From assembly GCF_900103485.1 (NCBI RefSeq), contig NZ_FNHW01000002.1, positions 62,001 through 126,000 on the forward strand: a DNA stretch of 64,000 bases. The letters are read 5' to 3'. A program made the translations under genes and the position numbers. Source of the DNA: Fictibacillus solisalsi. Its GTDB lineage: Bacteria > Bacillota > Bacilli > Bacillales > Fictibacillaceae. Of this stretch, positions 2,627 to 50,420 are shown piece after piece; the stretch's first letter is position 1; each line of letters starts with the position of its first letter. The notes beneath the pieces are model-generated. The model saw only the letters and a list, made by a program, of their open reading frames with translations, had not been told where the DNA came from and searched no databases.

Positions 2627-3106
2627 ATGGCGAATTATACATTGGAAGAAAAAGAAGGTTTTACCGTGATCGGTCTAGGAACGGAGCTTAAGAGCGATTA
2701 CACAGACTATGCCGGGATACACAAGGAAAAGGCAGATTTTTGGCAGGCAGTCGATCAGGATGGGAGGCTGGATACGTTAAAATCCATGGCGTCCAACGAC
2801 TACATTTTTGCGGTGAATGAAGCGGTGAACAACAAGATGATGCACTATGCCGGCGTTATGACAGAGGAACAGGCACCAGAAGAGGCAAGAGTGATTCAAT
2901 TTCCTAAAGGAGAATACGTAGTGGTCAAAGGGGAAGGGGAATCGGCTGATGATCTGAATAACAAGCTTGCTGCCGTTGCTTTTGGGCAAGTCCTGCCAGA
3001 AGCAACGAACGTTGCCTATGTTGGCGGACCCAATGCATCGGTTGAGATGGGGCAGCGCAACGGCTTGATCTATGGTGAAATGTGGATTCCTGTTATCCGC
3101 AAATAA
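2627..3106 (+). CDS. GyrI-like / AraC effector-binding domain protein
   Basis: The 159-residue protein is a stand-alone GyrI-like effector-binding domain: EGFTVIGLGTEL near the start, ARVIQFPKGEYVVVKGEGE in the middle and NGLIYGEMWIPVIRK at the end follow the family pattern. No DNA-binding domain is present. Family members bind small molecules or act as gyrase inhibitors or hydrolases; the role here is not known. The reading frame opens upstream at 2564, but the ATG at 2627 follows AGAAGAGAGG and gives the standard domain start. The next gene follows after 18 bases, suggesting co-transcription. Confidence 0.8.
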   Translation: MANYTLEEKEGFTVIGLGTELKSDYTDYAGIHKEKADFWQAVDQDGRLDTLKSMASNDYIFAVNEAVNNKMMHYAGVMTEEQAPEEARVIQFPKGEYVVVKGEGESADDLNNKLAAVAFGQVLPEATNVAYVGGPNASVEMGQRNGLIYGEMWIPVIRK

Positions 3107-36375: not shown

Positions 36376-36401
36376 CATTGAAAGAAAAGGGGGGCAATTT
36401 C

Positions 36402-37415
36402 TTGATCGAAGTGAACAACCTGGTAAAGGTGTATCGTTCAAAGAAGAAAGAAATCGTAGGGGTGAACAACGTTTCCCTTAATGTAAAAGAAGGGGAAATC
36501 TACGGCATTATCGGGTATAGCGGTGCTGGTAAAAGCTCACTTATCCGCTGTTTGAATTTGCTTGAAAAGCCAACATCGGGTCATGTGAAAATTGATGGAG
36601 TCGACCTTACGACGCTGAAAGGTGATGGCCTGCGAAAAGCACGATTAAAAATCGGGATGATCTTTCAGCATTTTCATCTCGTGAGCTCAAAAACGGTTTA
36701 TGAAAATATTGCGTTTGCACTTAAAGCAGCAGGAAAGACGAAAGCTAAAGCAAATAAGCGTGTCTTGGAACTTTTGGATCTGGTCGATCTGACTGATAAA
36801 AAAGACCAGTATCCGGCACAGTTGAGTGGTGGACAAAAACAAAGAGTAGGGATTGCCAGGGCACTTGCCAACAATCCAAAGGTGCTGTTATGCGATGAGG
36901 CGACCTCAGCACTAGATCCGAGTACAACCAAATCCATTCTCAATCTGTTAAAAGATATAAATAAAAAACTTGGACTGACCATCGTTCTGATAACGCATGA
37001 GATGGAAGTGGTGAAGGAGATTTGCCATAAAATCGCGGTTATGCAGAACGGGGAAGTGATCGAAGAGGGAGAGGTGTATGAGATTTTTTCCAATCCGAAA
37101 AAGCCGCTGACCCGGGATTTCATTAATAGTATCCTTCAGTTCGATCTTCCAGAGCAGCTGATTGAGAAAAGAAAGGGAACCATCATCAAGATCCAGTTTA
37201 AAGGTGAAATCGCTGAGGAGTCTGTCGTATCCGAGCTTTTCCAGCGGTATCAGGTGAAAGGAAACATCCTGCACGGCAAAATAGAATACATTCAGGATAC
37301 ACCTCTTGGCATTTTCATTATGGAATTGACGGGAGAAGCGTCTGAAGTAAAAAAGGCAATTGATTACATCACCAGCAAAACGAGAAGCCTGGAGGTGGTC
37401 CATGATGCTGCTTGA
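36402..37415 (+). CDS. metN: Methionine ABC transporter ATP-binding protein
   Basis: The 337-residue ATPase powers methionine uptake. Walker A is GYSGAGKSS, the signature LSGGQKQRVGIARAL, Walker B VLLCDEATSALDP and the switch His lies in LITHEME. The C-terminal ~95 residues form the NIL/ACT-like domain that senses methionine. The open frame begins earlier, but AAGGGGGG positions a TTG at 36402 (MIEVNNLVKVY), matching the usual MetN start. It is first in metNIQ and under SAM-riboswitch control. Confidence 0.95.
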   Translation: MIEVNNLVKVYRSKKKEIVGVNNVSLNVKEGEIYGIIGYSGAGKSSLIRCLNLLEKPTSGHVKIDGVDLTTLKGDGLRKARLKIGMIFQHFHLVSSKTVYENIAFALKAAGKTKAKANKRVLELLDLVDLTDKKDQYPAQLSGGQKQRVGIARALANNPKVLLCDEATSALDPSTTKSILNLLKDINKKLGLTIVLITHEMEVVKEICHKIAVMQNGEVIEEGEVYEIFSNPKKPLTRDFINSILQFDLPEQLIEKRKGTIIKIQFKGEIAEESVVSELFQRYQVKGNILHGKIEYIQDTPLGIFIMELTGEASEVKKAIDYITSKTRSLEVVHDAA

Positions 37416-38070
37416 ATCGCTCGTCCAGCTTATGCCGGATATTAATAAGGCGTTTTTCGAGACTCTCTATATGGTGGGAATTTCGCTGCTTGTAGCAATT
37501 GTTCTCGGACTTCCGCTTGGTGTTTTGCTGTTTGTAACGGATAAAGGATTGTTTTTGGAGAATTCGGTGGTGAAAGGTGTTGCCGGATGGATCGTAAACT
37601 TGATTCGTTCTATTCCCTACATCATTCTTTTGGTGGCATTGCTTCCTCTAACGAATCTTCTTACCGGCACAACGATTGGCCCTACGGCGGCCTCTGTCTC
37701 TTTGTCGGTAGCAGCGATTCCTTTTTTTGCAAGAATGGTAGAAACGTCAATGAGAGAGATTGATAAGGGTGTCATAGAATCGGCGATTGCGGTGGGAGCC
37801 ACTTCATGGATGATCATTAAGGATGTTCTTCTTCCGGAAGCCAAGCCTGGACTTGTTCAAGGGCTCACAATTACAACAATTAGTTTGGTCGGCTATTCTG
37901 CAATGGCCGGAATTGTTGGGGGCGGAGGTATTGGGGATCTGGCCATTCGATTTGGATACTATCGTTACGATAACACCGTTATGATTACCACGGTGGTGGT
38001 TTTGATTCTCCTTGTGCAGGTTATTCAGCTTGCGGGAGACTCTATCTCTAAAAAAGTAGATAAAAGATAA
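37402..38070 (+). CDS. metI: Methionine ABC transporter permease
   Basis: A 222-residue permease with about five helices and the EAA-like loop around ESAIAVGATSWMIIKDVLLPEA, which contacts MetN. GGAGG six bases before ATG 37402 sets the start (ATG 37405 is an alternative); it overlaps metN by 14 bases, indicating coupled translation. The equivalent B. subtilis gene is also called metP. Confidence 0.93.
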   Translation: MMLLESLVQLMPDINKAFFETLYMVGISLLVAIVLGLPLGVLLFVTDKGLFLENSVVKGVAGWIVNLIRSIPYIILLVALLPLTNLLTGTTIGPTAASVSLSVAAIPFFARMVETSMREIDKGVIESAIAVGATSWMIIKDVLLPEAKPGLVQGLTITTISLVGYSAMAGIVGGGGIGDLAIRFGYYRYDNTVMITTVVVLILLVQVIQLAGDSISKKVDKR

Positions 38071-38092
38071 TAATTAATAGGAGAGAGAAACT

Positions 38093-38920
38093 ATGAAAAA
38101 GTATTTGTCTGCACTTATTTTACTGCTTGTAGTTGGCCTTTTGTCAGCTTGTGGATCTTCATCCAGTGGATCATCAGGCTCTGGTGATAAAAAGAATATT
38201 GCCATTGGCGCCACAGCCGGTCCATACAGCGACATGGTAACAAAAGCGATCAAGCCACAACTTGAGAAAAAGGGGTACAAAGTCAAAGTAGTAGAGTTCA
38301 GTGATTATGTACAGCCTAACCTGTCCTTATCCAAAGGATCCATTGATGCCAACTTGTTTCAACATAAGATCTATATGGAAAATTTCGCAAAAGAGAAGAA
38401 CCTAAAACTGTCTGAGCTAATCAGTGTGCCAACCGCTCCAATGGGAGTATACTCTGAGAAATTTAAAAAAATAGAAGACATTAAGAATGGAAGCACCATT
38501 GCCATTGCCAATGATCCAGTAAACCTGGCAAGAACGCTGTTAATGTTCCAGGATGCCGGGCTTATTACCATCAAAAAAGATGTTAATCCATTAACGGCTT
38601 CTGAAAAAGATATACAAGACAACCCAAAGAAACTTCAGTTTAAGCCTTTGGAGGCTGCCCAATTGCCACGTGCAGTCGGAAGTGCGGATGTTTCCGCTGT
38701 ACCGGGAAATTTTGCAATCGCAGCAAAAATGAATCTTCAGGATGCGTTATTCCTTGAGAACATGCCGGATCAATACCGAAATCGTGTGGTAGTGAATACG
38801 AAAGACGTGAAATCCCAGTTCGCTAAAGACATTAAAGCAGCGGTAGAGTCGAAAGAATTTGAACAAACAATGGATAAAGAATTTAAAGGCTTCGGCAAGC
38901 CGGAGTGGATGAAGAAGTAA
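38093..38920 (+). CDS. metQ: Methionine-binding lipoprotein
   Basis: The 275-residue solute-binding protein has a lipoprotein signal (MKKYLSALILLLVVGLLSAC) with the lipidated Cys at residue 20, then a Ser/Gly linker and a NLPA-type domain beginning IAIGATAGPYSDMV. It captures D/L-methionine at the cell surface for MetNI. Twenty-two bases separate it from metI, with GGAGAGAG before the ATG. Confidence 0.95.
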   Translation: MKKYLSALILLLVVGLLSACGSSSSGSSGSGDKKNIAIGATAGPYSDMVTKAIKPQLEKKGYKVKVVEFSDYVQPNLSLSKGSIDANLFQHKIYMENFAKEKNLKLSELISVPTAPMGVYSEKFKKIEDIKNGSTIAIANDPVNLARTLLMFQDAGLITIKKDVNPLTASEKDIQDNPKKLQFKPLEAAQLPRAVGSADVSAVPGNFAIAAKMNLQDALFLENMPDQYRNRVVVNTKDVKSQFAKDIKAAVESKEFEQTMDKEFKGFGKPEWMKK

Positions 38921-39250: not shown

Positions 39251-40762
39251 CTATAATCGGCCCTGTAACCTCGGCAGGGGACGTGAGCTCCCTACTGGCA
39301 GGAACAACAGGCTTGTTTTTTTCCTTTCCTTCAGTTTATAGAGATCATCATAGGTATTCACATCAAACCCTAGGAGCGGATGCCCGGAGAGGTCCAACGC
39401 AGAAGCGGCGAGCAGCAAATGCTGGGAAAGAATTCCGGCCTCCATATGCTGGATGCGGTGGCCTCTGTATCCATAATCAGCTTGGTTATGGTCGCTTGAA
39501 CCGGCAATGACAAAATGTAGTGGAACCTGGGCCAGGTTGACCGTGTCTGCCAGCAATCCGTCCTGCAGCTCAGTGCGGAAATCACCTTCCTCAATAAGCG
39601 ATAAATCATGGCTTGATTCATCGTAAGAATAAAATCCGTTCGGTAAACCTGCCACGCTATAAGCATAGCAATACAGCGAAACATCCAATACATCCACATC
39701 ATTTTTGTGCAAAGAGGCAGAGAAGGCTTCGTTTAGAAGAGCCATTAAGGCAGACTTGCTTACAGGCTTTTGATAAAAGTCAAGCCCGGGAGAATGGCGT
39801 TTTTCACAGACAGAATAAAAGTCGTACGATAACCGCTCAGTTCGAGGAGGTTTTGGTATTTCGCTTTTCTCTCTTTTCCATGTTAACGAGTTCAGCAGGC
39901 AGGCTTCATTCATTTTTAGTATTACCGGGTATGGCCTGATTTCCCTTGATCGCACGTAATGACCATGGGAAAGTGGTGGCAGTTCGCTGGATAAGGAGGC
40001 GGCAGTAATCGATTCTTCGGGTTTCTCCTCTTTAATCCACGCCAATGCCGGATCAACGGCAAGAGGAAGTATCGCATATACACTTTCCTCTTGACCGGAT
40101 ATCCCTAGAAGATGGTTAATGGCACGGTCAAGAAACTGATAATATACACGGCTTTGAAACCCGATCCTCCTGCCCGTTTCCAGCAGCTGGCCGATCACAA
40201 ACCCGGTGTCCAGTCCCTGCAGCCGGTAGGAAAAGTTATGGTATTTGAAAAAGTTTTTCCAGAAAAAAACCGAGAGAAAAACTGTGCCAAAGGCGGAAGA
40301 AAGATCACAACGGCTCCCGAGAGCACGCTGGAGATAGCTGTCAAAATTCCCTTCTCGCAAAGCGACCAATCGGTGATGTGCTGCATCATAGTGATAAATG
40401 CCATGTGGCAGGCCTTCCATTTTTAAATAAAGATACAGCTCGCTTGGATAAAGGGCACCGCCCGAGGGGGCAAAACGCCGGAATGTGGTCCATTCTCCGG
40501 TCTGGTCATCAACCGGCAAAGTCTGGCTGATCTGGGTAAGGCCGAACGTGAATTTTAAAAAGTGGCCGAGCTCTTCTAGCGATGGAATGGATGTTTTTTT
40601 CTCTTTGAAATGGAAAAGGGGAGAAATAGGCAGTTCTACGGACGGCAATTCCTGGTACAGCTTATAGGGAAGGGGGGCGTCGTCCCAGTTCACCACCCAG
40701 TCCCCGGGCTTTACCCGGTCTGTCTCATAATGAAGTTTATATAAAAAATCATCGAGCTTCAT
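39251..40762 (-). CDS. SagB-type FMN dehydrogenase (azoline oxidation)
   Basis: The 503-residue protein has two tandem nitroreductase-like domains (~60-250 and ~310-495), as in the SagB/ThcOx family. RRFAPSGGALYPSELYLYLK in the first and RHSPGLDFYQKPVSKSALMALL in the second show the family pattern. SagB enzymes use FMN to oxidise thiazolines/oxazolines to thiazoles/oxazoles in TOMM peptides. It is the last gene of the cluster, 22 bases after the cyclodehydratase gene, with AAGGAGG before the ATG. The substrate is presumably the Cys-rich precursor encoded at 44753-45067. Confidence 0.88.
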   Translation of the reverse strand: MKLDDFLYKLHYETDRVKPGDWVVNWDDAPLPYKLYQELPSVELPISPLFHFKEKKTSIPSLEELGHFLKFTFGLTQISQTLPVDDQTGEWTTFRRFAPSGGALYPSELYLYLKMEGLPHGIYHYDAAHHRLVALREGNFDSYLQRALGSRCDLSSAFGTVFLSVFFWKNFFKYHNFSYRLQGLDTGFVIGQLLETGRRIGFQSRVYYQFLDRAINHLLGISGQEESVYAILPLAVDPALAWIKEEKPEESITAASLSSELPPLSHGHYVRSREIRPYPVILKMNEACLLNSLTWKREKSEIPKPPRTERLSYDFYSVCEKRHSPGLDFYQKPVSKSALMALLNEAFSASLHKNDVDVLDVSLYCYAYSVAGLPNGFYSYDESSHDLSLIEEGDFRTELQDGLLADTVNLAQVPLHFVIAGSSDHNQADYGYRGHRIQHMEAGILSQHLLLAASALDLSGHPLLGFDVNTYDDLYKLKERKKTSLLFLPVGSSRPLPRLQGRL

Positions 40763-40784
40763 GGTCTTCCTCCTTCGGGACGAA

Positions 40785-42725
40785 TTATGGAAACGGATGG
40801 GGAAAGGGGTTCAGGTCGCTGACGTTCAGCGGTTTTTTTGTATAACCGAGTTTCGCCGGTACGTTTAAGACACGGTCCAATCCTTTCAGGCGAGTCAGAT
40901 GATGCCCGAACGTCATGGGAATCATGCCAGGTATTATGACTTTGACACAATGAAGTCCGTTTCGTTTCAATTCCGGACTGGTTTGATCCACGACGATGAC
41001 TTCCATCTGGAGATCTTGAAAAATGTTCAGGATATCCTTTAAATCGTCAAGCAAATCCGGCTGCTGGCGGGGCGGCGAGAATTCCTCGTCAAAGCGCCTT
41101 ACCGGAGGTTGGGCAAGCAGGAACGACAGTCGTTCTTCTGTTTCCTTTAAGCCGTACAGCATCGAGTGGTCTTCCATTTGTTGGACGAGATAGGAATCAT
41201 GGTACATGCTGACGTATTTTTCCCGGTTCTGTTCGAGCTTTTCGTCCATGTTGAGCAGCATACCGGCAATCTCTTGTACCGCACCTTTTACTGCCCTCAA
41301 AGGATCAATGTGGGCTCCGGCGGCACAAACGACGTTCATTCCTGTCGGCTTTGTGCTTTTGGCAATAGCCCAGATACTTGGGATGCCGTTTTCGGTTGTT
41401 GAATTGTACAGCCGGACTTCATAGCCAGCCACCGTGTGTAGGCGCTCGATCATGAGCTGGAATTCCTGATCATCGATTGATCCGGGATCAAGACACGGTA
41501 GAGGAAGCCGGCCGTACCATGTCATTAGGAAAGAATCACGCTCCACAATTTCAAAAATTCCGTAGAGGATGGCTTCCTCAAGACTGCCGCCAAGTGCACA
41601 GCCGTTCGAGGTTTCATAGACAAACCCTCCGCCGCATCCCAGACTGTAATAGGCAAAGGTCTCTGGGACCAACAGCGGCTGTTTCTGTGTTAGCGAGTAG
41701 CCCCACACCCAATGGATGGATCGGTCAGGAGTGAGCGGCTGGAAAGGAAAATGGGGACGATTGTATTGCTCATCTGTATGAACGCCCACCGCTTTCGGAT
41801 TAAGGGCATGATCTGCCACCTCTTTATACGGCGCATAAACCGTTGTGCGTTTTCCTTTTGGCGCATAACCGCAGTATCTTTCGAGCCCCTCCAAGATGGC
41901 TCCCTGTTCACTTTGAACATAGGAATGGGTGCGTCCGGCGCATAATTCATTGCCCGTCAGCAGGGGCAGATTCACTACCGTATCAGCGAACGGCGAAGTG
42001 AGGTCGTAATGTTTTTGATTCAGAAGACCGGTTCGGTGGTCGATATAATTTCTGCCAAGTATCTTTTCCAGCTCTTCTAATGAGCGGCAGCGGAAGCTTT
42101 TGGGGGAGGTTTTAGGGCTGGGTTTCAAGTGAACTGTTGCTCTTTCTGCTGTATCCTCCGGCAGATTTCCGCATACCGGGCAGTACGGATCAGGCAGAAC
42201 GAGGTGGCTGGATAGCCGGAGCGTATTTAAATGCAGAAGAAAGACATGTTCAAAGGTACGGCTTTTTTTCCCCGACAAGATGTGATGGACTTCCTCCTGT
42301 ATAAGAAGGGAGGCATGTTTTAGACCGAGAGTGGAAGCCCAGGGATCATTTTCCGTTTGAGGATGGTCCATCATATATTCCTTCAGCTGGAAATGTTCTC
42401 TCCGGTTTGAACCGGCCATAAAGATACGCTGGTCTGCGCACTCTGAGCAGCCCTCATGATCAGGCTGAACAAGGGGGCCGATGCAGGCTTCGCCAAAGGC
42501 AATAAACCCCCGTAGCCAGGGAACGTGGGATGAGCGAAAGGCCTCTTCGGCTTTTCGATGTTCCCCGGGTATCCAGGAATCATGAAGCACCAGGGCCAGC
42601 GCTTGTTGATCCAAAACCGCTTCGCTTACTGTAGCTGCCCTTGATAATGGGTACTGTCCGCACAGCTCCCCGTGTACCTGATCAGCCAACATTCCGTTGC
42701 CGATAATAACGATGGATTGGCTCAT
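40785..42725 (-). CDS. E1-like/YcaO fused cyclodehydratase (SagC-SagD type)
   Basis: This 646-residue enzyme carries an N-terminal E1/ThiF-like leader-binding region (MSQSIVIIGNGMLADQ) with two Cys-x-x-Cys pairs (CSECADQR, YCPVCGN) forming a probable zinc site. A YcaO domain follows with SEQGAILEGLERYCG and GGSLEEAILYGIFEIVERDSF, where Glu residues bind Mg-ATP. It ends in the Pro-rich NPFPHPFP tail needed by azoline-forming YcaO proteins. It would activate backbone amides with ATP and cyclise Cys (Ser/Thr) residues. The frame extends upstream, but the ATG at 42725 overlaps the preceding stop (ATGA). Confidence 0.92.
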   Translation of the reverse strand: MSQSIVIIGNGMLADQVHGELCGQYPLSRAATVSEAVLDQQALALVLHDSWIPGEHRKAEEAFRSSHVPWLRGFIAFGEACIGPLVQPDHEGCSECADQRIFMAGSNRREHFQLKEYMMDHPQTENDPWASTLGLKHASLLIQEEVHHILSGKKSRTFEHVFLLHLNTLRLSSHLVLPDPYCPVCGNLPEDTAERATVHLKPSPKTSPKSFRCRSLEELEKILGRNYIDHRTGLLNQKHYDLTSPFADTVVNLPLLTGNELCAGRTHSYVQSEQGAILEGLERYCGYAPKGKRTTVYAPYKEVADHALNPKAVGVHTDEQYNRPHFPFQPLTPDRSIHWVWGYSLTQKQPLLVPETFAYYSLGCGGGFVYETSNGCALGGSLEEAILYGIFEIVERDSFLMTWYGRLPLPCLDPGSIDDQEFQLMIERLHTVAGYEVRLYNSTTENGIPSIWAIAKSTKPTGMNVVCAAGAHIDPLRAVKGAVQEIAGMLLNMDEKLEQNREKYVSMYHDSYLVQQMEDHSMLYGLKETEERLSFLLAQPPVRRFDEEFSPPRQQPDLLDDLKDILNIFQDLQMEVIVVDQTSPELKRNGLHCVKVIIPGMIPMTFGHHLTRLKGLDRVLNVPAKLGYTKKPLNVSDLNPFPHPFP

Positions 42726-44608
42726 GTTTGTTCCACCCCGCTTAGCACCACACCAAAAATATCCTTTGTATGTTCGTTGAAAAAGGATTCCGCTTGCAGT
42801 TCGTAAAATTGAACCTTCTGGTTTAGCCGGTTTAAAGGAGACAGAAAAGTTTCCTTCCATGTTTCTTCGTTAAAGGAAAACTCGGGCTGTTTCTCTTTAT
42901 AGACAGTAACAGAGGAAGCGGTAACCCCATATGGTAAATGACAGGTTTCCTTATCCTGAGCAGTTATCAAAGCCGTTTGCAAAGCACGGCTTACCGCCAT
43001 CTTTTGATTCAGTCCCACACTTCCATGCCAATTTTCGCCGGCCTTAACCCAAATCACTGGAAAACCGAGAACAGCTTCTCCAGAAAAGAGCTGAGGAGCC
43101 GGTTTGAGGGTTTTCAATGACTGCCATAAAAATTGGCACCGTTCATCTTCAAGGGAAGACAGGTTCAAAGGCGTTTCGCTGACAAAGTAATCCTGCTTTT
43201 TCTGAAACACCTCGTGAAGGGCATTCTGCAGTGCCCTGCCCATACCTTCCTCAGCGGTTTGGCCAATCCCCGCTCCCCAATTGAAGGGCCGGTTTTCACC
43301 AAAGAACTCGTTTTCATAGTTGCTGATATATTGTTCGAGGCCAAACAGACCCGCTTCAAGACGGGCTTCCTCATGGGTGAGACCTGAGCAAACGAGTTCG
43401 GGAAAGAGCCTGGATGGACCTTCTGAACGCGGATCAGCAACTTGAACCTTACACTGTGATAGCGGGAGCTGAGATAAATCAGCTTCCTCCCAAACATGAA
43501 AGATACCCGCTTCCGTCGACGTGATATGGAGGAAAAGGGGATACAGATTTGTTGGCTGATGGGCGCGGGTTTCAAGAAATTGAGCCGGGTTTTCAATAGG
43601 CTCTGCAGATACACGGCCGTTTATCAAAGGATGGGGAAGAAACGGCTGCCAGGTTCCTTCAAGTGTTTCAAGGTTGAGCTGGTAAAAGGATGTATCCTTC
43701 CGACCTTCATACACCCCTGTGACTTCTTTAAACCATTCAAAAACAGCCACGTTTGCCAACAGGGCACAAGCCGTTTGAGAAGGAGAAGTATGTGGTGCTT
43801 GATTCCGACACTGGTGAATGCGGCGAAACGCAGATTCCCAGGAAACTTCCGATTTGGCAGTGACGACAGGGCCGGCAAAAGCAAGGCCGTTTGAAATAGT
43901 AACCGGAAGAAAAGTCTTTCCCTGTTTCTTGCAAAGGGAATGAAGGGCATGAAGCTCGGTTAGATCACTGCCATGGGAACTGTAAAGAACAGAATCATAG
44001 GGTTTTAGCTCCGTGCTCCAATCATTTTTCAGGGATTGCATAATGGTGATTTTTGACTCGGAATCTTTCTTTGCGGCTTTTTTCATCATTTCATGCAGGC
44101 GAGGGCGCAGGGATTGTTGGGACTCGGTGAGGAAGATGGTAAAGCAAGGGAGACCGGATTGGATGAGAGATTGAACAAGAGAGGGAAGAAGGGAATCGGC
44201 TCCCATTACTGCGGCTTTTGTCTGGCGGTAAACCTGGAACCGGTAGGCTCCTGAATCTCGGATTTGGTCCAAATATTCGATTTGGGAAGCGTATTGACTA
44301 AGAACAGTTTCTGCCAGCTGGTGAGGTATGTTTTGGCTAACATCCCGGGCAAAACCGTTCTCGTACAGAATCTGGACGATTTTATAGACCTGTTCTTGAA
44401 AAGCCTCCGGCAGCCCATTTGTAATGGCTTGAAGGGTGTGGGTTCCGTCAAGCATCGGTGTCAGCCTTTCCAGCCAGCGGTCAATGGTGCTGCCTTCCAT
44501 TCGTAACGATTTTTCATTGTTCCGGACAGCCACTCCCTGGTTCGAATCAGGAATGATAAACGTGTCCCTGTTCATTTTTAAGCACATTGAATCATTAACC
44601 TTTTGCAT
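42722..44608 (-). CDS. Putative thiazole-containing bacteriocin maturation protein (ThiF-like)
   Basis: A 628-residue protein of the family annotated in Bacillus next to heterocycloanthracin/TOMM genes (ocin_ThiF_like). It opens with MQKVNDSMCLKMNRDTFIIPD and has a degenerate Rossmann-like region near QTKAAVMGADSLLPSLVQSL. The central part contains SPSQTACALLANVAVFEWFKEVTGV, typical of E1-like proteins that have lost catalysis. It probably helps bind the leader peptide or assemble the cyclodehydratase complex. GGAGGG precedes the ATG; it overlaps the YcaO gene by 4 bases. Confidence 0.88.
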   Translation of the reverse strand: MQKVNDSMCLKMNRDTFIIPDSNQGVAVRNNEKSLRMEGSTIDRWLERLTPMLDGTHTLQAITNGLPEAFQEQVYKIVQILYENGFARDVSQNIPHQLAETVLSQYASQIEYLDQIRDSGAYRFQVYRQTKAAVMGADSLLPSLVQSLIQSGLPCFTIFLTESQQSLRPRLHEMMKKAAKKDSESKITIMQSLKNDWSTELKPYDSVLYSSHGSDLTELHALHSLCKKQGKTFLPVTISNGLAFAGPVVTAKSEVSWESAFRRIHQCRNQAPHTSPSQTACALLANVAVFEWFKEVTGVYEGRKDTSFYQLNLETLEGTWQPFLPHPLINGRVSAEPIENPAQFLETRAHQPTNLYPLFLHITSTEAGIFHVWEEADLSQLPLSQCKVQVADPRSEGPSRLFPELVCSGLTHEEARLEAGLFGLEQYISNYENEFFGENRPFNWGAGIGQTAEEGMGRALQNALHEVFQKKQDYFVSETPLNLSSLEDERCQFLWQSLKTLKPAPQLFSGEAVLGFPVIWVKAGENWHGSVGLNQKMAVSRALQTALITAQDKETCHLPYGVTASSVTVYKEKQPEFSFNEETWKETFLSPLNRLNQKVQFYELQAESFFNEHTKDIFGVVLSGVEQT

Positions 44609-44694
44609 GAAGGCCCTCCTTTTCAGAAAACTCGATTATGACATCATTTAACTGTATGGATCGCTGATTGTCCTTTATGTCTGTCTCCATAAAG

Positions 44695-44729
44695 AAAAGC
44701 CCTGCATTTTGAAAGGATGCAAGACTTTT
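44695..44729 (-). terminator. Attenuator hairpin between precursor and maturation genes
   Basis: On the minus strand AAAAGTCTTGCAT pairs with ATGCAGGGCTTTT, using two G-U pairs that exist only in this orientation, followed by CTTTA. Partial termination here would make more precursor mRNA than enzyme mRNA, common in bacteriocin operons. Confidence 0.65.
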
Positions 44730-44752
44730 CTTTGTGTCCCTGATTCTTTTAC

Positions 44753-45067
44753 TTAACGGTGGCCTCCGCAATGGCCGCCACAACCGCCGCAGCGTCCGCC
44801 GCAACCGCCACAGCGTGCACAACCGCCGCAGCGCGCACAACCGCCGCATCCCGCACAGCGGGCACAGCCAACGCACCCGACACAACCGCCGCAGCCGCCA
44901 CAGCCTCCGCATGGTCCGATGCAGGTCCCAACCACACAGACACCAACGACGACACACTGTCGCGCAGGATCATTCATGTCCTGATACTGCGGATAGTTCG
45001 GCTGAACATTGCTGACATTGACATCTTCCGTGTTTAATCCCTCAAGATTCCACTTGAATTCATCCAA
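44753..45067 (-). CDS. Heterocycloanthracin/sonorensin-type TOMM precursor peptide
   Basis: The 104-residue precursor has an acidic leader (~1-37: MDEFKWNLEGLNTEDVNV to MNDPARQ) and a core with 19 cysteines. From residue ~52 the core consists mainly of three-residue units C-G-G, C-V-G, C-A-R (segment CGGCGGCGGCVGCVGCARC). It resembles the heterocycloanthracin/sonorensin family, whose Cys residues become thiazoles. The start is a TTG, eight bases after GGAGG; the nearby ATG is out of frame. It lies 144 bases ahead of the three modification genes. Confidence 0.9.
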   Translation of the reverse strand: MDEFKWNLEGLNTEDVNVSNVQPNYPQYQDMNDPARQCVVVGVCVVGTCIGPCGGCGGCGGCVGCVGCARCAGCGGCARCGGCARCGGCGGRCGGCGGHCGGHR

Positions 45068-45153: not shown

Positions 45154-45162
45154 TAAAGTATG
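45154..45162 (-). promoter_or_regulatory. Possible sigma-K-like -10 element upstream of the precursor
   Basis: On the minus strand CATACTTTA matches the sigma-K -10 pattern CATANNNTA, with AAC about 17 bases further upstream as a weak -35. It lies about 87 bases before the TTG start. No good sigma-A promoter is evident, so mother-cell sporulation control is possible but speculative. Confidence 0.25.
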
Positions 45163-45292
45163 GATTCTGCTTGTACCAAGTTACCGACAGGAGCGGAATC
45201 CTGCACTTATGGGCTAAAGACTCGCTGAAATCCTGTCTTTAATAAAGAGGTTGTACATATACTGATTCATCAAGAACAAAAGGGGAGGTATT

Positions 45293-46085: not shown

Positions 46086-47522
46086 TTAAAGCGGAGAAGG
46101 CGTAACCCCTTCTGGTATGGGACAATCATACGTTTGCCCTTCTGTTTGACTGTCCAGTTCATCCTTGGCCTGCTTCACAATCTCTGGGTCCTGAAGAATC
46201 TCCCATGCTGTGCCGGCCAGCACTTTCGCTGCCTGAAGCATGCCTTTGTGGGCCAGGGAGGTGGCACCCTGGCTGACGAGCTGCCAGGTATGGAGCGGTG
46301 TTCCAAAAACAAAGCAGGATCCGAAGAATTGGGCGGTCGGCACTGTCCAGCTGACATCGCCCACATCGGTAGAACCGAACATCAGCTCAGTCGTTTCTTC
46401 AAACGGAAGAACGGCTTCAAGGAATGTGCTATTAACGGTCTTCAGCCGGCTATTAGGCGTGAGCTTGTTGATTTCCTGGATCGTATTTTGAATATCATCT
46501 GCGGTAATCTGCTGGTGAATTTCCTCTGCAAACTTCATCTCGTTCTGGTCATAGTCAGGAATCCCATAGATTTCAAGCTGTTTATGCATAATGCTACCGA
46601 GCGAGGTGTTTGGCAAGTAATTGGAGCACGCTTTATCGAACCGGACATCGACCTCGGTTTCTGTCATGAGTGCTGCGCCTTTGGCAATGTTCAGCACCCG
46701 GTTGTAGATGCTCTTCACATCGCTCATTTGCGGCCCTCGGATGAGATAAAGCACCTCAGCTTCCGGCTGAACGACGTTCGGTGACAGTCCGCCCGTATTG
46801 GTGATGGCATAGTGGACGCGTGCTTCGGGAATGATATGCTCGCGCAAATAATTGACACCAACATTCATGAGCTCTACCGCATCCAGTGCGCTTCTTCCCA
46901 GGTGGGGAGAGTTAGCGGCATGGGACGCTTTTCCTTTGAACGTAAACGCAATCTGATAGTTTGCGAGAGACGAGAATGAAAAGATGCCGCTGTAAGAGCC
47001 CGGATGCCATGTGAGGGCACAATCGGCATCCTCAAACAGTCCTTCTCTTATCATGAAAGTTTTTCCGGATCCGCCTTCTTCACCCGGACAGCCATAGTAT
47101 TTAATGGTTCCCTTTACTCCTTCTGCTTCCATCTGTTTTTTTAAGGTAATGGCAGCCGCTAGAGGAGCGGTTCCAAGAAGGTTATGTCCGCACCCATGGC
47201 CGTTGCCGTTTGGGACCACAGGATTTGGTAAAGCTGTCTTTGCGTGCTGGCTTAATCCGGGGAGGGCGTCATATTCACCCAGAAGTGCAATGACGGGCTT
47301 GCCCTGTCCATACGTAGCGATAAAGGCCGTCTCGATTCCGCCAACGCCACGTTCTACATTGAATCCTTCTTTCTCAAGCGTACCGGCAAGAAGGTCAAAA
47401 GATTGGTATTCTTCGAATCTCGTTTCTGCCAAACCCCAGATGGTGTCGCTGAGGTTAATATACGTATCCCGGTTTTCTTCAATGAGTTTTTCAATTTGGG
47501 AGACAGACTCTGCTATTTTCAT
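46086..47522 (-). CDS. abgB: AbgB-like M20 amidohydrolase
   Basis: The 478-residue protein matches the B subunit of p-aminobenzoyl-glutamate hydrolase: metal-ligand motif NGHGCGHNLLGTAPLAAAI, then CPGEEGGSGKTFM with the catalytic Glu, and TDVGDVSWTVP. The E. coli subunit is nearly the same length (481). With AbgA it cleaves the folate breakdown product p-aminobenzoyl-glutamate to p-aminobenzoate and glutamate. The frame opens at a GTG, part of the GGCGGTG binding site; the ATG at 47522 is the likely start. Confidence 0.85.
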   Translation of the reverse strand: MKIAESVSQIEKLIEENRDTYINLSDTIWGLAETRFEEYQSFDLLAGTLEKEGFNVERGVGGIETAFIATYGQGKPVIALLGEYDALPGLSQHAKTALPNPVVPNGNGHGCGHNLLGTAPLAAAITLKKQMEAEGVKGTIKYYGCPGEEGGSGKTFMIREGLFEDADCALTWHPGSYSGIFSFSSLANYQIAFTFKGKASHAANSPHLGRSALDAVELMNVGVNYLREHIIPEARVHYAITNTGGLSPNVVQPEAEVLYLIRGPQMSDVKSIYNRVLNIAKGAALMTETEVDVRFDKACSNYLPNTSLGSIMHKQLEIYGIPDYDQNEMKFAEEIHQQITADDIQNTIQEINKLTPNSRLKTVNSTFLEAVLPFEETTELMFGSTDVGDVSWTVPTAQFFGSCFVFGTPLHTWQLVSQGATSLAHKGMLQAAKVLAGTAWEILQDPEIVKQAKDELDSQTEGQTYDCPIPEGVTPSPL

Positions 47523-47534
47523 AATTAACACCGC

Positions 47535-48848
47535 CTATTTAAGAATGAATTTCTCAACATGGGACACGAGCTTTTCAAGGGAGGAAACCGCAATTTTCAT
47601 GGCCGATTCATCAATATCGAATTTCTCGTGATGATGGCCGGCAGCAAGCGTTGTCCCGAAGATCAGATACGTGGCATAGCCGCCAAGCTCTTTGACTCGT
47701 TCCAGCATATAGGTCGCATCCTCGGAGCCCGAGCCAAACGGGGAATCACTGATCACTGAGTCTACACCCTCGATATCCTTGACGATTTCTTCCACGTACG
47801 TTTTTAGCTCCGGACTAGAATCACTCGTCTTGGCCTCACCCACAACTTCCGTTTTGACTTCCACATCATGCATGGAGGCAGCTCCGTAAATGATGTTCAG
47901 CGCTTGTTTGAGGATATATTGATTGATCTCGGTCGTTTCGCCACGAGTTTCCACTTTTAAATGTGCCGAAGAAGGAATGATATTTCGTCCGGTTCCGGCT
48001 TGAAACACACCAACGTTAATTCTGGATTGGCCGGCGCTGTGCCTGCTGATGCCGTACAGATTCAGTACAGCCGTCGAGGCAGCGAGGAGCGCGTTTTTTC
48101 CGTCTTCCGGATTGCTTCCGGCATGTGCGGCTTGCCCTGTATAGTCCACATCAATTTTTGTGGTGGACAGGAATCCATTGGCTCCGCTCACGATCTGTCC
48201 GAGCGGAATGCCCACGCCGATATGAGAGGCAAAAAAGACATCCACGTCATCAACAACACCTGCCGCTACCATGGATTTGGCCCCGCGGACACCTTCTTCT
48301 GCCGGCTGAAAGATCAATTTTATTCTTCCGGTCAGTTCGTTCTTTTTATCGGATAAAAGCTTGGCCAGGCCAAGACCGATGGAAGTGTGGGCATCATGGC
48401 CGCAGGCGTGCATCATGTTGACGTTTCGGGATTGAAAGCCTTCCTTCACCGGCACATGGGAGGCATCTGACGACTCCTTCAAATCGAGCGCGTCCATGTC
48501 AAAACGAAGCCCGACCGTTGGCCCGGGTTTGCCTGTGTCCAGGAGGCCGACCACTCCGGTAAAGCCGCCAGATAAATAAGGAAGCCACTTGGGAGCAGCT
48601 CCCTGGGCAAGCGCACGTTCTTCCTGTTCTTTTAAAAAGGATTCGGGAGGCACACCCATGCGGGACTCTTCATCTACCACTTCCTTTCCTGCCTTTACTT
48701 CATACCCCCACTCTTCCAGACGGGATGCTACAAGTGATGCCGTACGGAATTCCACCCATCCAGATTCGGCGTGCTGGTGGAAGTCTCTGCGCCATTCTAT
48801 AATTTGCGGATATAAATCATGAACAGAACTTGTTTTTGTTGTTGTCAT
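47535..48848 (-). CDS. abgA: AbgA-like M20 amidohydrolase
   Basis: A 437-residue M20 metallo-amidohydrolase similar in size to E. coli AbgA (436). Metal and catalytic motifs are visible: MMHACGHDAHTSIGLGLA, IFQPAEEGVRGAKSMVAAG and GSGSEDATYMLERV. It lies between the transporter gene and abgB, 12 bases before the latter, and probably forms the heteromeric hydrolase with AbgB. GGAGAGTGAT precedes the ATG. Confidence 0.85.
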   Translation of the reverse strand: MTTTKTSSVHDLYPQIIEWRRDFHQHAESGWVEFRTASLVASRLEEWGYEVKAGKEVVDEESRMGVPPESFLKEQEERALAQGAAPKWLPYLSGGFTGVVGLLDTGKPGPTVGLRFDMDALDLKESSDASHVPVKEGFQSRNVNMMHACGHDAHTSIGLGLAKLLSDKKNELTGRIKLIFQPAEEGVRGAKSMVAAGVVDDVDVFFASHIGVGIPLGQIVSGANGFLSTTKIDVDYTGQAAHAGSNPEDGKNALLAASTAVLNLYGISRHSAGQSRINVGVFQAGTGRNIIPSSAHLKVETRGETTEINQYILKQALNIIYGAASMHDVEVKTEVVGEAKTSDSSPELKTYVEEIVKDIEGVDSVISDSPFGSGSEDATYMLERVKELGGYATYLIFGTTLAAGHHHEKFDIDESAMKIAVSSLEKLVSHVEKFILK

Positions 48849-48878
48849 TTGTAATCACTCTCCACGATGTTCAAAGTT

Positions 48879-50420
48879 TTAATTAATGTACATGCCGACT
48901 CCCGGTCCAACCGGAATGCCTAGAAGTCCGAAGGCCAGAAGCAAGATAATCCATACAATCAAAAATACAACCGTATATGGAATCATTAACGACATCAGCG
49001 TGCCGATTCCCGCCTTTTTGTCATATTCATTCATGAACGACAGCAGAATGGCGAAGTACGGATTAAGCGGTGTGACCATGTTGGTGGAAGATTCCCCGAT
49101 GCGGTAGGCCACCTGAATGAACGCGGGATTATAATTCAGCAGCATCAGCATCGGCATGAAAACCGGAGCCTCCAGTGCCCATAGTGCTGAGCCGCTGATG
49201 ATGAACAGGCTGAGGAAAGCTGTTACGAGCACAAAGCCAATAACGACGGGCAGCCCGGTCAAGTTGATGGAGCTCAAGCCGTCTGCTGTATTAACCGCAA
49301 TCCATGTGGCAAGGTTGCTCCAGTTAAAGTAGGCAATAAACTGGGCGATGGCAAACACGAGCACAATATAGCCGGCCATATCCCGGATGGAATCGGTCAT
49401 CAGTGCAGGCACATCGCTCGTTTTCTTAATTTTTTTCATTGTGACCCCGAATGTGACGCCAACGGTAATGAAAAAGAGCAGGATAATAGGCACAATCCCG
49501 TCCAAAAACGGGGAAGGGATAATCGTTCCGCCATCTCCTCTCAGTGGAGAGTTTGGAAGAAACAGCACAAGAGCCACAAGCCCGATGTAAACAATGGCAG
49601 CGATGAATGCGTTGCGAAGCGCCTTATTTTCAAGGGTATTGGAGGTGAAATCGAGTTCCTTTTTTCCAGTTTCTCCGTCATAGGCGCCAAGGCGGGGTTC
49701 AATAAATTTCTCTGTCACCAGGCCTCCGACGATCGTCAGAACAATAGTGGAAACGCTCATAAAGTACCAGTTATCCACAGGTGAAACAGACGCGTTCGCA
49801 TCAATCGTTTGAGCCACTTCAGTAGAGATGCCGGAAAGAAGCGCATCTGTTCCTGCGATTAAAATATTGGCCGTAAATCCAATTCCCGAACTGGCAAAAC
49901 CAGCAGCGAGCCCTGCGATCGGGTGGCGCCCGATGGAGTAAAACACTACAGCGGCCAAGGGCGGAATGATAACAAAAGCGGCATCGGACGCAATGTTGGC
50001 CATAATGCCAATGAAAAACACGGTATAAGTGATAACCGATTTGTGTGCTTTAATAATCGTCTTTGTGATCACGCTCTCGAACAATCCGACGCGCTGGGTC
50101 AGCCCAATCCCGAGCACCATCGCCAAAACAAGACCGAGCGGTTTAAATCCGGTGAAATTTTCAAGCATGGACGTGAGTATGAATTTCAAGCCTTCACCGG
50201 AGATCAGGCTTTTGACTTTCAGTGTTTCTTTGGTTGCAGGATGCACAACAGATACATCAAACAAGCTGACAAGTGCAGATAAAACAATCATGAATAATGC
50301 CAGATACACAAAAAGCATAAAAGGGTGGGGAAGACGGTTCCCAAGCCGTTCAATGGTATTTAATAAACCTGAAATGTTCCTTGCACTTCTTTTTTGAACA
50401 CTGGCTGATAGTTCTGCCAT
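48879..50420 (-). CDS. abgT: AbgT-family transporter
   Basis: A 513-residue, multi-helix transporter of the AbgT family. Key segments are GNRLPHPFMLFVYLALFMIV near the start and SGSALWALEAPVFMPMLMLL late in the sequence. E. coli AbgT imports p-aminobenzoyl-glutamate; some relatives export sulfonamides. Together with the two hydrolase genes it forms an uptake-and-cleavage operon for folate fragments. It is the first gene of the operon, under a good promoter with a palindromic operator. Confidence 0.88.
   Translation of the reverse strand: MAELSASVQKRSARNISGLLNTIERLGNRLPHPFMLFVYLALFMIVLSALVSLFDVSVVHPATKETLKVKSLISGEGLKFILTSMLENFTGFKPLGLVLAMVLGIGLTQRVGLFESVITKTIIKAHKSVITYTVFFIGIMANIASDAAFVIIPPLAAVVFYSIGRHPIAGLAAGFASSGIGFTANILIAGTDALLSGISTEVAQTIDANASVSPVDNWYFMSVSTIVLTIVGGLVTEKFIEPRLGAYDGETGKKELDFTSNTLENKALRNAFIAAIVYIGLVALVLFLPNSPLRGDGGTIIPSPFLDGIVPIILLFFITVGVTFGVTMKKIKKTSDVPALMTDSIRDMAGYIVLVFAIAQFIAYFNWSNLATWIAVNTADGLSSINLTGLPVVIGFVLVTAFLSLFIISGSALWALEAPVFMPMLMLLNYNPAFIQVAYRIGESSTNMVTPLNPYFAILLSFMNEYDKKAGIGTLMSLMIPYTVVFLIVWIILLLAFGLLGIPVGPGVGMYIN

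Follow-up and report, generated by a model that had tools for sequence, protein, structure and literature searches.

A heterocycloanthracin/sonorensin-type azole-peptide cassette of Fictibacillus solisalsi with promoters resembling those of the sporulating mother cell

When in its life cycle would a Fictibacillus cell make a thiazole-rich peptide, and under which sigma factors? The question is raised by a 64,000-nt stretch of the Fictibacillus solisalsi genome (contig NZ_FNHW01000002.1, positions 62,001 to 126,000; hereafter the window), whose minus strand carries, at 45067-39251, a cassette made up of a peptide precursor gene (A) and three modification genes (F, D and B). A preliminary description had outlined a Cys-rich precursor followed by ThiF-like, E1/YcaO and SagB-type genes on this strand, with an ATGA overlap. 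The coordinates proved exact, and hidden Markov model (HMM) searches placed the proteins inside the families of thiazole/oxazole-modified microcins (TOMMs). The locus is a new member of the known heterocycloanthracin/sonorensin (HCA) family. Judging from the sequences upstream of its genes and those of its relatives, we put at roughly 80% the probability that this azole-peptide cassette is run by the mother-cell sporulation programme. The features on which the argument turns are:

45154..45184, minus strand: candidate sigma-K-class promoter of A (GTAAC, 17 nt, CATACTTTA; a sequence match conserved in relatives)
44753..45067, minus strand: precursor A (104 aa, TTG start with AGGAGG, 19 Cys, Cys-Xaa-Xaa core; TIGR03601)
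44691..44733, minus strand: 17-pair terminator-like hairpin in the A-F gap (RNA folding energy -20.6 kcal/mol, z -6.2)
44650..44680, minus strand: candidate sigma-E-class promoter of F-D-B (ACATAA, CATACAGTT, 18 nt between AT and CATA)
42722..44608, minus strand: F protein, with an N-terminus like a RiPP recognition element (RRE; residues 18-90), an E1/ThiF-like middle and a C-terminal part of uncertain fold (TIGR03693)
40785..42725, minus strand: D protein, a fusion of a truncated E1-like domain and a YcaO cyclodehydratase, with CxxC pairs and a C-terminal PHPFP (TIGR03604, TIGR03882); its start overlaps the end of F by ATGA
39251..40762, minus strand: B protein, a SagB-type flavin mononucleotide (FMN) dehydrogenase with tandem nitroreductase domains and Lys173-Tyr174 (TIGR03605)

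Promoter classes upstream of the precursor and the enzymes

Of the genomes searched, 6 of 7 in the genus, 28 of 34 in the family and 76 of a sample of 299 from the order had an F match, three of those in the order being weak and partial. We fetched 87 loci (7 from the genus, 20 from the family, 60 from the order), comprising 60 of the 66 genomes from the order that matched F (G104, G110, G277, G292, G293 and G318 were left out) and 27 of the 30 family matches (G015, G016 and G022 were left out). The set of 82 precursors derived from them leaves out L126, whose frame is altered and contains N, and L129, for which the wrong open reading frame (ORF) had been picked; at L099, L113 and L122 no Cys-rich ORF lay directly before F.

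A first scan of the 300 nt before these 82 precursors recovered the sigma-K pattern 24 times, as compared with 1.4 in shuffled sequences (max 5), and gave no clear excess of the sigA, sigB, sigE, sigG, sigH or sigW patterns (sigA sites, 13/82 versus 12.2 expected; sigH, 5 versus 2.6, max 7). A later score, combining GTAAC with a -10 element allowing one mismatch, was devised after the strict hits, mostly in Fictibacillaceae, had been seen; applied to the 57 precursors outside that family, it reached 7 in 42 of them (shuffle mean 1.5, max 4) and 8 in 29 (0.07, max 1). The 69 aligned sites form a block, AAAATAGGC...ATCAGTAACAAtgcCCAA...CATATTTTGTTG.gGAGAGT, at a median of 116 nt before the start and with little conservation outside it; in the window, the -10 element begins 95 nt before the TTG codon.

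The two promoter classes were distributed differently over the two parts of the cassette. AC-N16:18-CATANNNT preceded 72/82 precursors (shuffle mean 3.9, max 9) and its AT, or sigma-E, version 6/82 (7.1), whereas upstream of the enzymes the AT site occurred in 71/87 cassettes, that of the window included (6.1, max 13), and the AC site in 4/87 (2.6). Half or more of the members carried the precursor site in 23 of 27 genera and the enzyme site in 26 of 27; when one locus per genus was drawn, the counts over 100 draws were at least 21/27 (shuffle mean 1.2, max 5) and at least 23/27 (1.4, max 5), respectively. Physical separation did not abolish the pattern: in L099, L113 and L129, where 4-10 kb separate precursor and enzymes, the precursor still has its site, at -85 to -89, in L122 a site at 2990 precedes a precursor frame that by inspection opens at 3056, and four separated enzyme operons retain the AT site.

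Sigma-E and sigma-K are described as having a common -10 element and one differing -35 base, T or C (Eichenberger et al., PMC517825), with 15 +/- 1 nt between a 5-nt -35 and a 10-nt -10, which when recounted corresponds to an AC-CATA spacer of about 17 nt. This spacing and the C-versus-T rule agree with the mapped promoters of B. subtilis (PMC517825) and with those of C. difficile (PMC3789822). As controls we took dpaA and yabG (sigma-K) and spoIIIAA (sigma-E) from 30 genomes of the same sample; dpaA is reported to be under sigma-K in C. difficile and B. subtilis, a YabG-like gene likewise (PMC3789822), and spoIIIA to be controlled by sigma-E (PMC517825). The AC and AT sites were found in 29/30 and 1/30 genomes for dpaA, 21/30 and 9/30 for yabG, and 1/30 and 21/30 for spoIIIAA, against a background of 4.9% and 6.3% in 2610 windows of 250 nt drawn at random from the same set of loci. 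The dpaA site of the strain itself, GTAAC-N17-CATATGATG, resembles that of its precursor gene.

In other orders, 71 of 398 genomes of the class sample held a precursor, and the 30 best-scoring matches with a locus, minus 4 of the window's own order, left 26 precursors, one of which (L249) offered no readable frame and was counted as a miss. A relaxed AC-N16:18-CATA site preceded 21 of these (shuffle 3.0, max 8) and the AT version 4 (5.5); by family, the relaxed site was found in 12/13 members of f68 (1.6, max 5) and 9/13 elsewhere (1.3, max 4). A sigma-class scan on 24 other-order loci found no pattern enriched.

We also scanned upstream of the -35 element for RWWTRGGY, which we take to be the GerE consensus. 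The composite of such a box with AC and CATA preceded 35/82 precursors of the order set, every one outside Fictibacillaceae, and 14/26 in the other orders (shuffle 0.03, max 1), where f68 contributed 12/13 and the remaining precursors 2/13; it was found in 0/30 for each control gene and 0/87 for F. At the F promoter, 15/62 sites had a SpoIIID-like box, for which we assume the consensus WWRRACARNY, versus 2.3 in shuffles (max 6), which is suggestive only.

The hairpin between A and F escapes a stock terminator scan, which admits loops of 3-8, its own loop being 9; of 79 A-F gaps, 47 had a terminator-like hairpin, compared with 0.7 in shuffles (max 2). In the window, the sigma-E-class site of F is downstream of the hairpin, and the sequence suggests separate transcription units for A and for F-D-B, with some read-through from A into F possible. 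The compact layout had been put forward as easy to study as one unit; for transcription a single unit is doubtful, since the hairpin and the separate sigma-E-class promoter stand between the sigma-K-class precursor gene and the enzymes.

Points for and against sporulation control

Several observations weigh against control by the sporulation programme. Ten of the 82 precursors lack a sigma-K-class site, four genera being mostly without it; one genus (g2, 12 cassettes) has no strict enzyme site; and a same-type match, GTAAC-N17-CATANNNTA, occurs inside F on the opposite strand of the window. Under the strict -10 rule only 4/26 other-order precursors match, the relaxed rule having been set after those sequences were seen, and half of the 26 (13) belong to a single family, the source of 12 of the 14 GerE composites. 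No GerE-like box was found in the 250 nt before the precursor of the window, nor at any Fictibacillaceae site. The AT sites of yabG exceed shuffles (9 versus 1.8, max 6), so yabG is not a clean control. The promoter counts come from related sequences outside the B. cereus group and are not independent events. In B. cereus biofilms, HCA genes are reported to go up where sporulation genes rise too (PMC6962202), which is compatible with sporulation and not specific to it.

The most familiar alternative is an ordinary secreted linear-azole bacteriocin of growing or stationary cells, the boxes being sites of another regulator or inherited sequence without that function. The family name, the common ancestry of related cassettes and the reports of sonorensin as an antibacterial peptide (PMC4544038), which also count against a sporulation role, speak for it. 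We nonetheless consider it improbable: the promoter blocks stand out from unconserved flanks, and each class agrees with its own control genes; neither of the two intergenic regions scanned in the window has a sigma-A-type site, and precursors show no sigma-A excess before them; and the flanks of the 87 cassettes (medians of some 1.5 kb on the upstream and 2.6 kb on the downstream side; the rest of the genomes was not searched) hold no recurrent gene for an exporter, a protease or immunity.

Enzymes, gene order and closest known systems

Precursor A matches TIGR03601, the HCA/sonorensin family, at 46.2 bits (cut-off 35; NCBIfam), D matches TIGR03604 (415.5 bits) and TIGR03882 (NCBIfam) and, for YcaO, PF02624, and B matches TIGR03605 at 221.3 bits in two stretches (NCBIfam), as it does PF00881. 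The genome holds a single TIGR03601 match and a single YcaO. Outside the window's order, two genomes (G489 and G499) have six TIGR03601 matches each, both assemblies being listed with contamination 8.

F scores 552.3 bits against TIGR03693 (E 1.3e-165, residues 1-623), slightly under the curated cut-off of 561.9 (NCBIfam); scores under this cut-off are frequent in the family (28/34 genomes match, 12 above it). The score of F, together with the lack of a GerE-like box in the promoter region, could be read as a cassette that is degenerate or silent in this strain. Such a reading would surprise us greatly: all four frames are open, the near-invariant residues, the PHPFP end and the Lys-Tyr pair are retained, and the four proteins share 79-95% identity with their counterparts in the two nearest genomes.

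The F protein has 628 aa. Its RRE and E1 parts are backed by matches to PbtF (8t19) and MccB and by a model with fold search; the AlphaFold2 model matches LynD/TruD along its length (Foldseek; best E 2.7e-17, TMq 0.53-0.57), and the C-terminal 300 residues may, on this model, be a degenerate YcaO-like domain. Pfam YcaO gave no match in this part, and the VIA-align alignments, which covered residues 8-341 only, included no YcaO structure among the matches listed. D matches LynD/TruD, with residue 41 aligning to LynD residue 151, and is a fused C-D protein without the N-terminal leader-binding part. B matches McbC and 3eo7, and its Lys173-Tyr174 is kept in at least 95% of 86 relatives. The cyclodehydratase, the Lys-Tyr pair of the dehydrogenase and the 19 Cys are consistent with the polythiazole peptide proposed for the locus, which is predicted from the genes; azoline formation by HCA enzymes, dependent on F, is reported to have been reconstituted in vitro (PMC4603692, PMC10634744).

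The HCA assignment was correct, and its B. cereus-group setting was not, the host being a Fictibacillus whose F is 91% identical to that of Fictibacillus enclensis and 79% to that of F. fluitans, the nearest named relatives. The B. cereus-group HCA system (PMC2674419) shares with the cassette a TIGR03601 precursor, a Cys-Xaa-Xaa core and F with a fused, truncated C-D and B, and differs in host and in precursor position; PMC2674419 gives no description of sporulation control. Earlier papers had already reported B. anthracis and B. cereus precursors encoded far from the enzymes, and an adjacent precursor in B. licheniformis (Haft 2009, PMC2674419; Cox 2015, PMC4603692). The B. licheniformis/sonorensin type likewise has its precursor adjacent to the maturation genes (PMC2674419), and TIGR03601 is named for heterocycloanthracin and sonorensin; its core triplets, Cys-Trp-Ser, are unlike those seen here (PMC2674419), in a comparison that covered the genes. 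The thiopeptide machinery of PbtF and of micrococcin TclI/TclJ/TclN (PMC10634744) has in common an RRE on an ocin-ThiF protein, an E1-YcaO cyclodehydratase and an FMN dehydrogenase; it differs in that the four cassette genes include no macrocyclisation gene, and F has 628 aa as against a TclI described up to residue 242. With the sigma-K and sigma-E regulons (PMC517825, PMC3789822) the cassette shares the -35 AC or AT, the -10 CATA, the spacing and the split into early and late genes, and differs in that no GerE-like box was found at the cassette of the window; the words bacteriocin, antibiotic and antimicrobial do not occur in the main text of PMC517825.

F, D and B lie side by side in the 87 loci, apart from L126 (B not found), L084 (D split over two frames) and L099 (B cut by the locus end), and a Cys-rich ORF precedes F in 84/87. 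With two wrongly picked ORFs set aside, the gap between precursor and enzymes lies between -31 nt, an artefact of start choice, and 414 nt in 80/82 cases and is 1.3 and 1.6 kb in the other two; for four precursors the distance to F is 4-10 kb. The preliminary description had singled out the adjacency of precursor and enzymes; its contrast with the B. cereus group was right, and we dropped adjacency as a point of interest, as it is usual among the sampled relatives. The sampling itself favoured adjacency, because a precursor match had served to place 55 of the 60 loci from the order.

Among ORFs of at least 90 aa, the 25 largest clusters contained no conserved extra cassette gene: besides A they were, by position and inspection, mostly antisense or out-of-frame shadows of F, D and B, the others being flanking genes confined to particular lineages and, in 8 loci, an ABC-type ATPase. 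In the window, 46089-50420 holds two tandem M20-type amidohydrolases and an AbgT-like transporter (named by inspection), a block that adjoins the cassette in two near species as well, and a methionine-type ABC operon (36378-38920) lies on the other side. L126 is the second cassette of genome G030; its precursor frame has a His-rich altered stretch, there is no sigma-K-class site before it, and the cassette may be decaying or the assembly at fault.

Fate of the peptide and meaning for the family

The leader of A probably ends near Arg36, and a conserved Arg near residue 35 marks the leader/core boundary in 79/82 precursors. The rule applied (Arg with Asp/Glu at most 5 residues before) is permissive and favours a match, so the conserved Arg is only a lead. 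YabG is described as cutting preproSleC after the Arg in SR/QS, and may read structure rather than sequence (PMC6464247).

Cores vary widely. One Fictibacillus genome (G006) has two complete cassettes, L011 and L012, with very different cores, one of Phe/Ser/Asn-rich CxxC repeats and one of Gly/Phe-rich repeats. In L142 a run of Cys-Ser dipeptides replaces the Cys-Xaa-Xaa triplets, and similar runs occur in the other-order precursors L233, L241 and L260. The precursors of L119 and L120 are built on a different period, with FCAGRCGG repeats, and the scan of the region before them found no sigma-K-class site.

Taken as mother-cell genes, the cassette could work as follows. Sigma-E RNA polymerase would transcribe F-D-B early in the mother cell, and sigma-K would later turn on A, in many relatives with an upstream box fitting GerE, so that the substrate would arrive when the enzymes are already present. 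B would oxidise the azoline rings to thiazoles, a sporulation protease, for instance YabG, might cut off the leader behind the conserved Arg, and the product would stay on the spore surface or escape by lysis of the mother cell; such a fate, we propose, would account for the lack of a recurrent exporter, leader protease or immunity gene nearby. The use of sigma factors, the order of events, the chemistry in this organism, the leader cleavage and the fate of the product are drawn from genes and promoters. That the whole HCA family is a developmental ribosomally synthesized and post-translationally modified peptide (RiPP) of the endospore mother cell, with sigma-E enzymes, a sigma-K and often GerE substrate, YabG-type leader cleavage and delivery by spore or lysis, is a view to which we lean slightly.

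The same promoters would suit a structural spore-coat peptide, in which the polyazole chain builds or shields the spore surface and is no antibiotic. Sigma-K and GerE are reported to drive the last mother-cell genes (PMC517825), and the core of A is long, of low complexity and variable among relatives; yet cores differ strongly among genera, as is usual in antibacterial peptides, and sonorensin is reported to permeabilise membranes (PMC4544038). We regard a coat role as a tentative option, on the doubtful side of even.

Mother-cell control of the HCA cassette would bear on a large azole-peptide group, of which 254 clusters were counted in Cox 2015 (PMC4603692). In a literature search, to which subscription journals were mostly closed, we found no published statement of a link between HCA and sporulation. 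If A is a sigma-K gene, late-sporulation cultures, spores and lysates are the material to sample. Delivery on the spore or by lysis of the mother cell could explain how the native product might have escaped notice. A natural-product pathway would then be tied to a well-understood cell-fate programme, and the regulatory wiring, if confirmed, would make the HCA family a developmental product.

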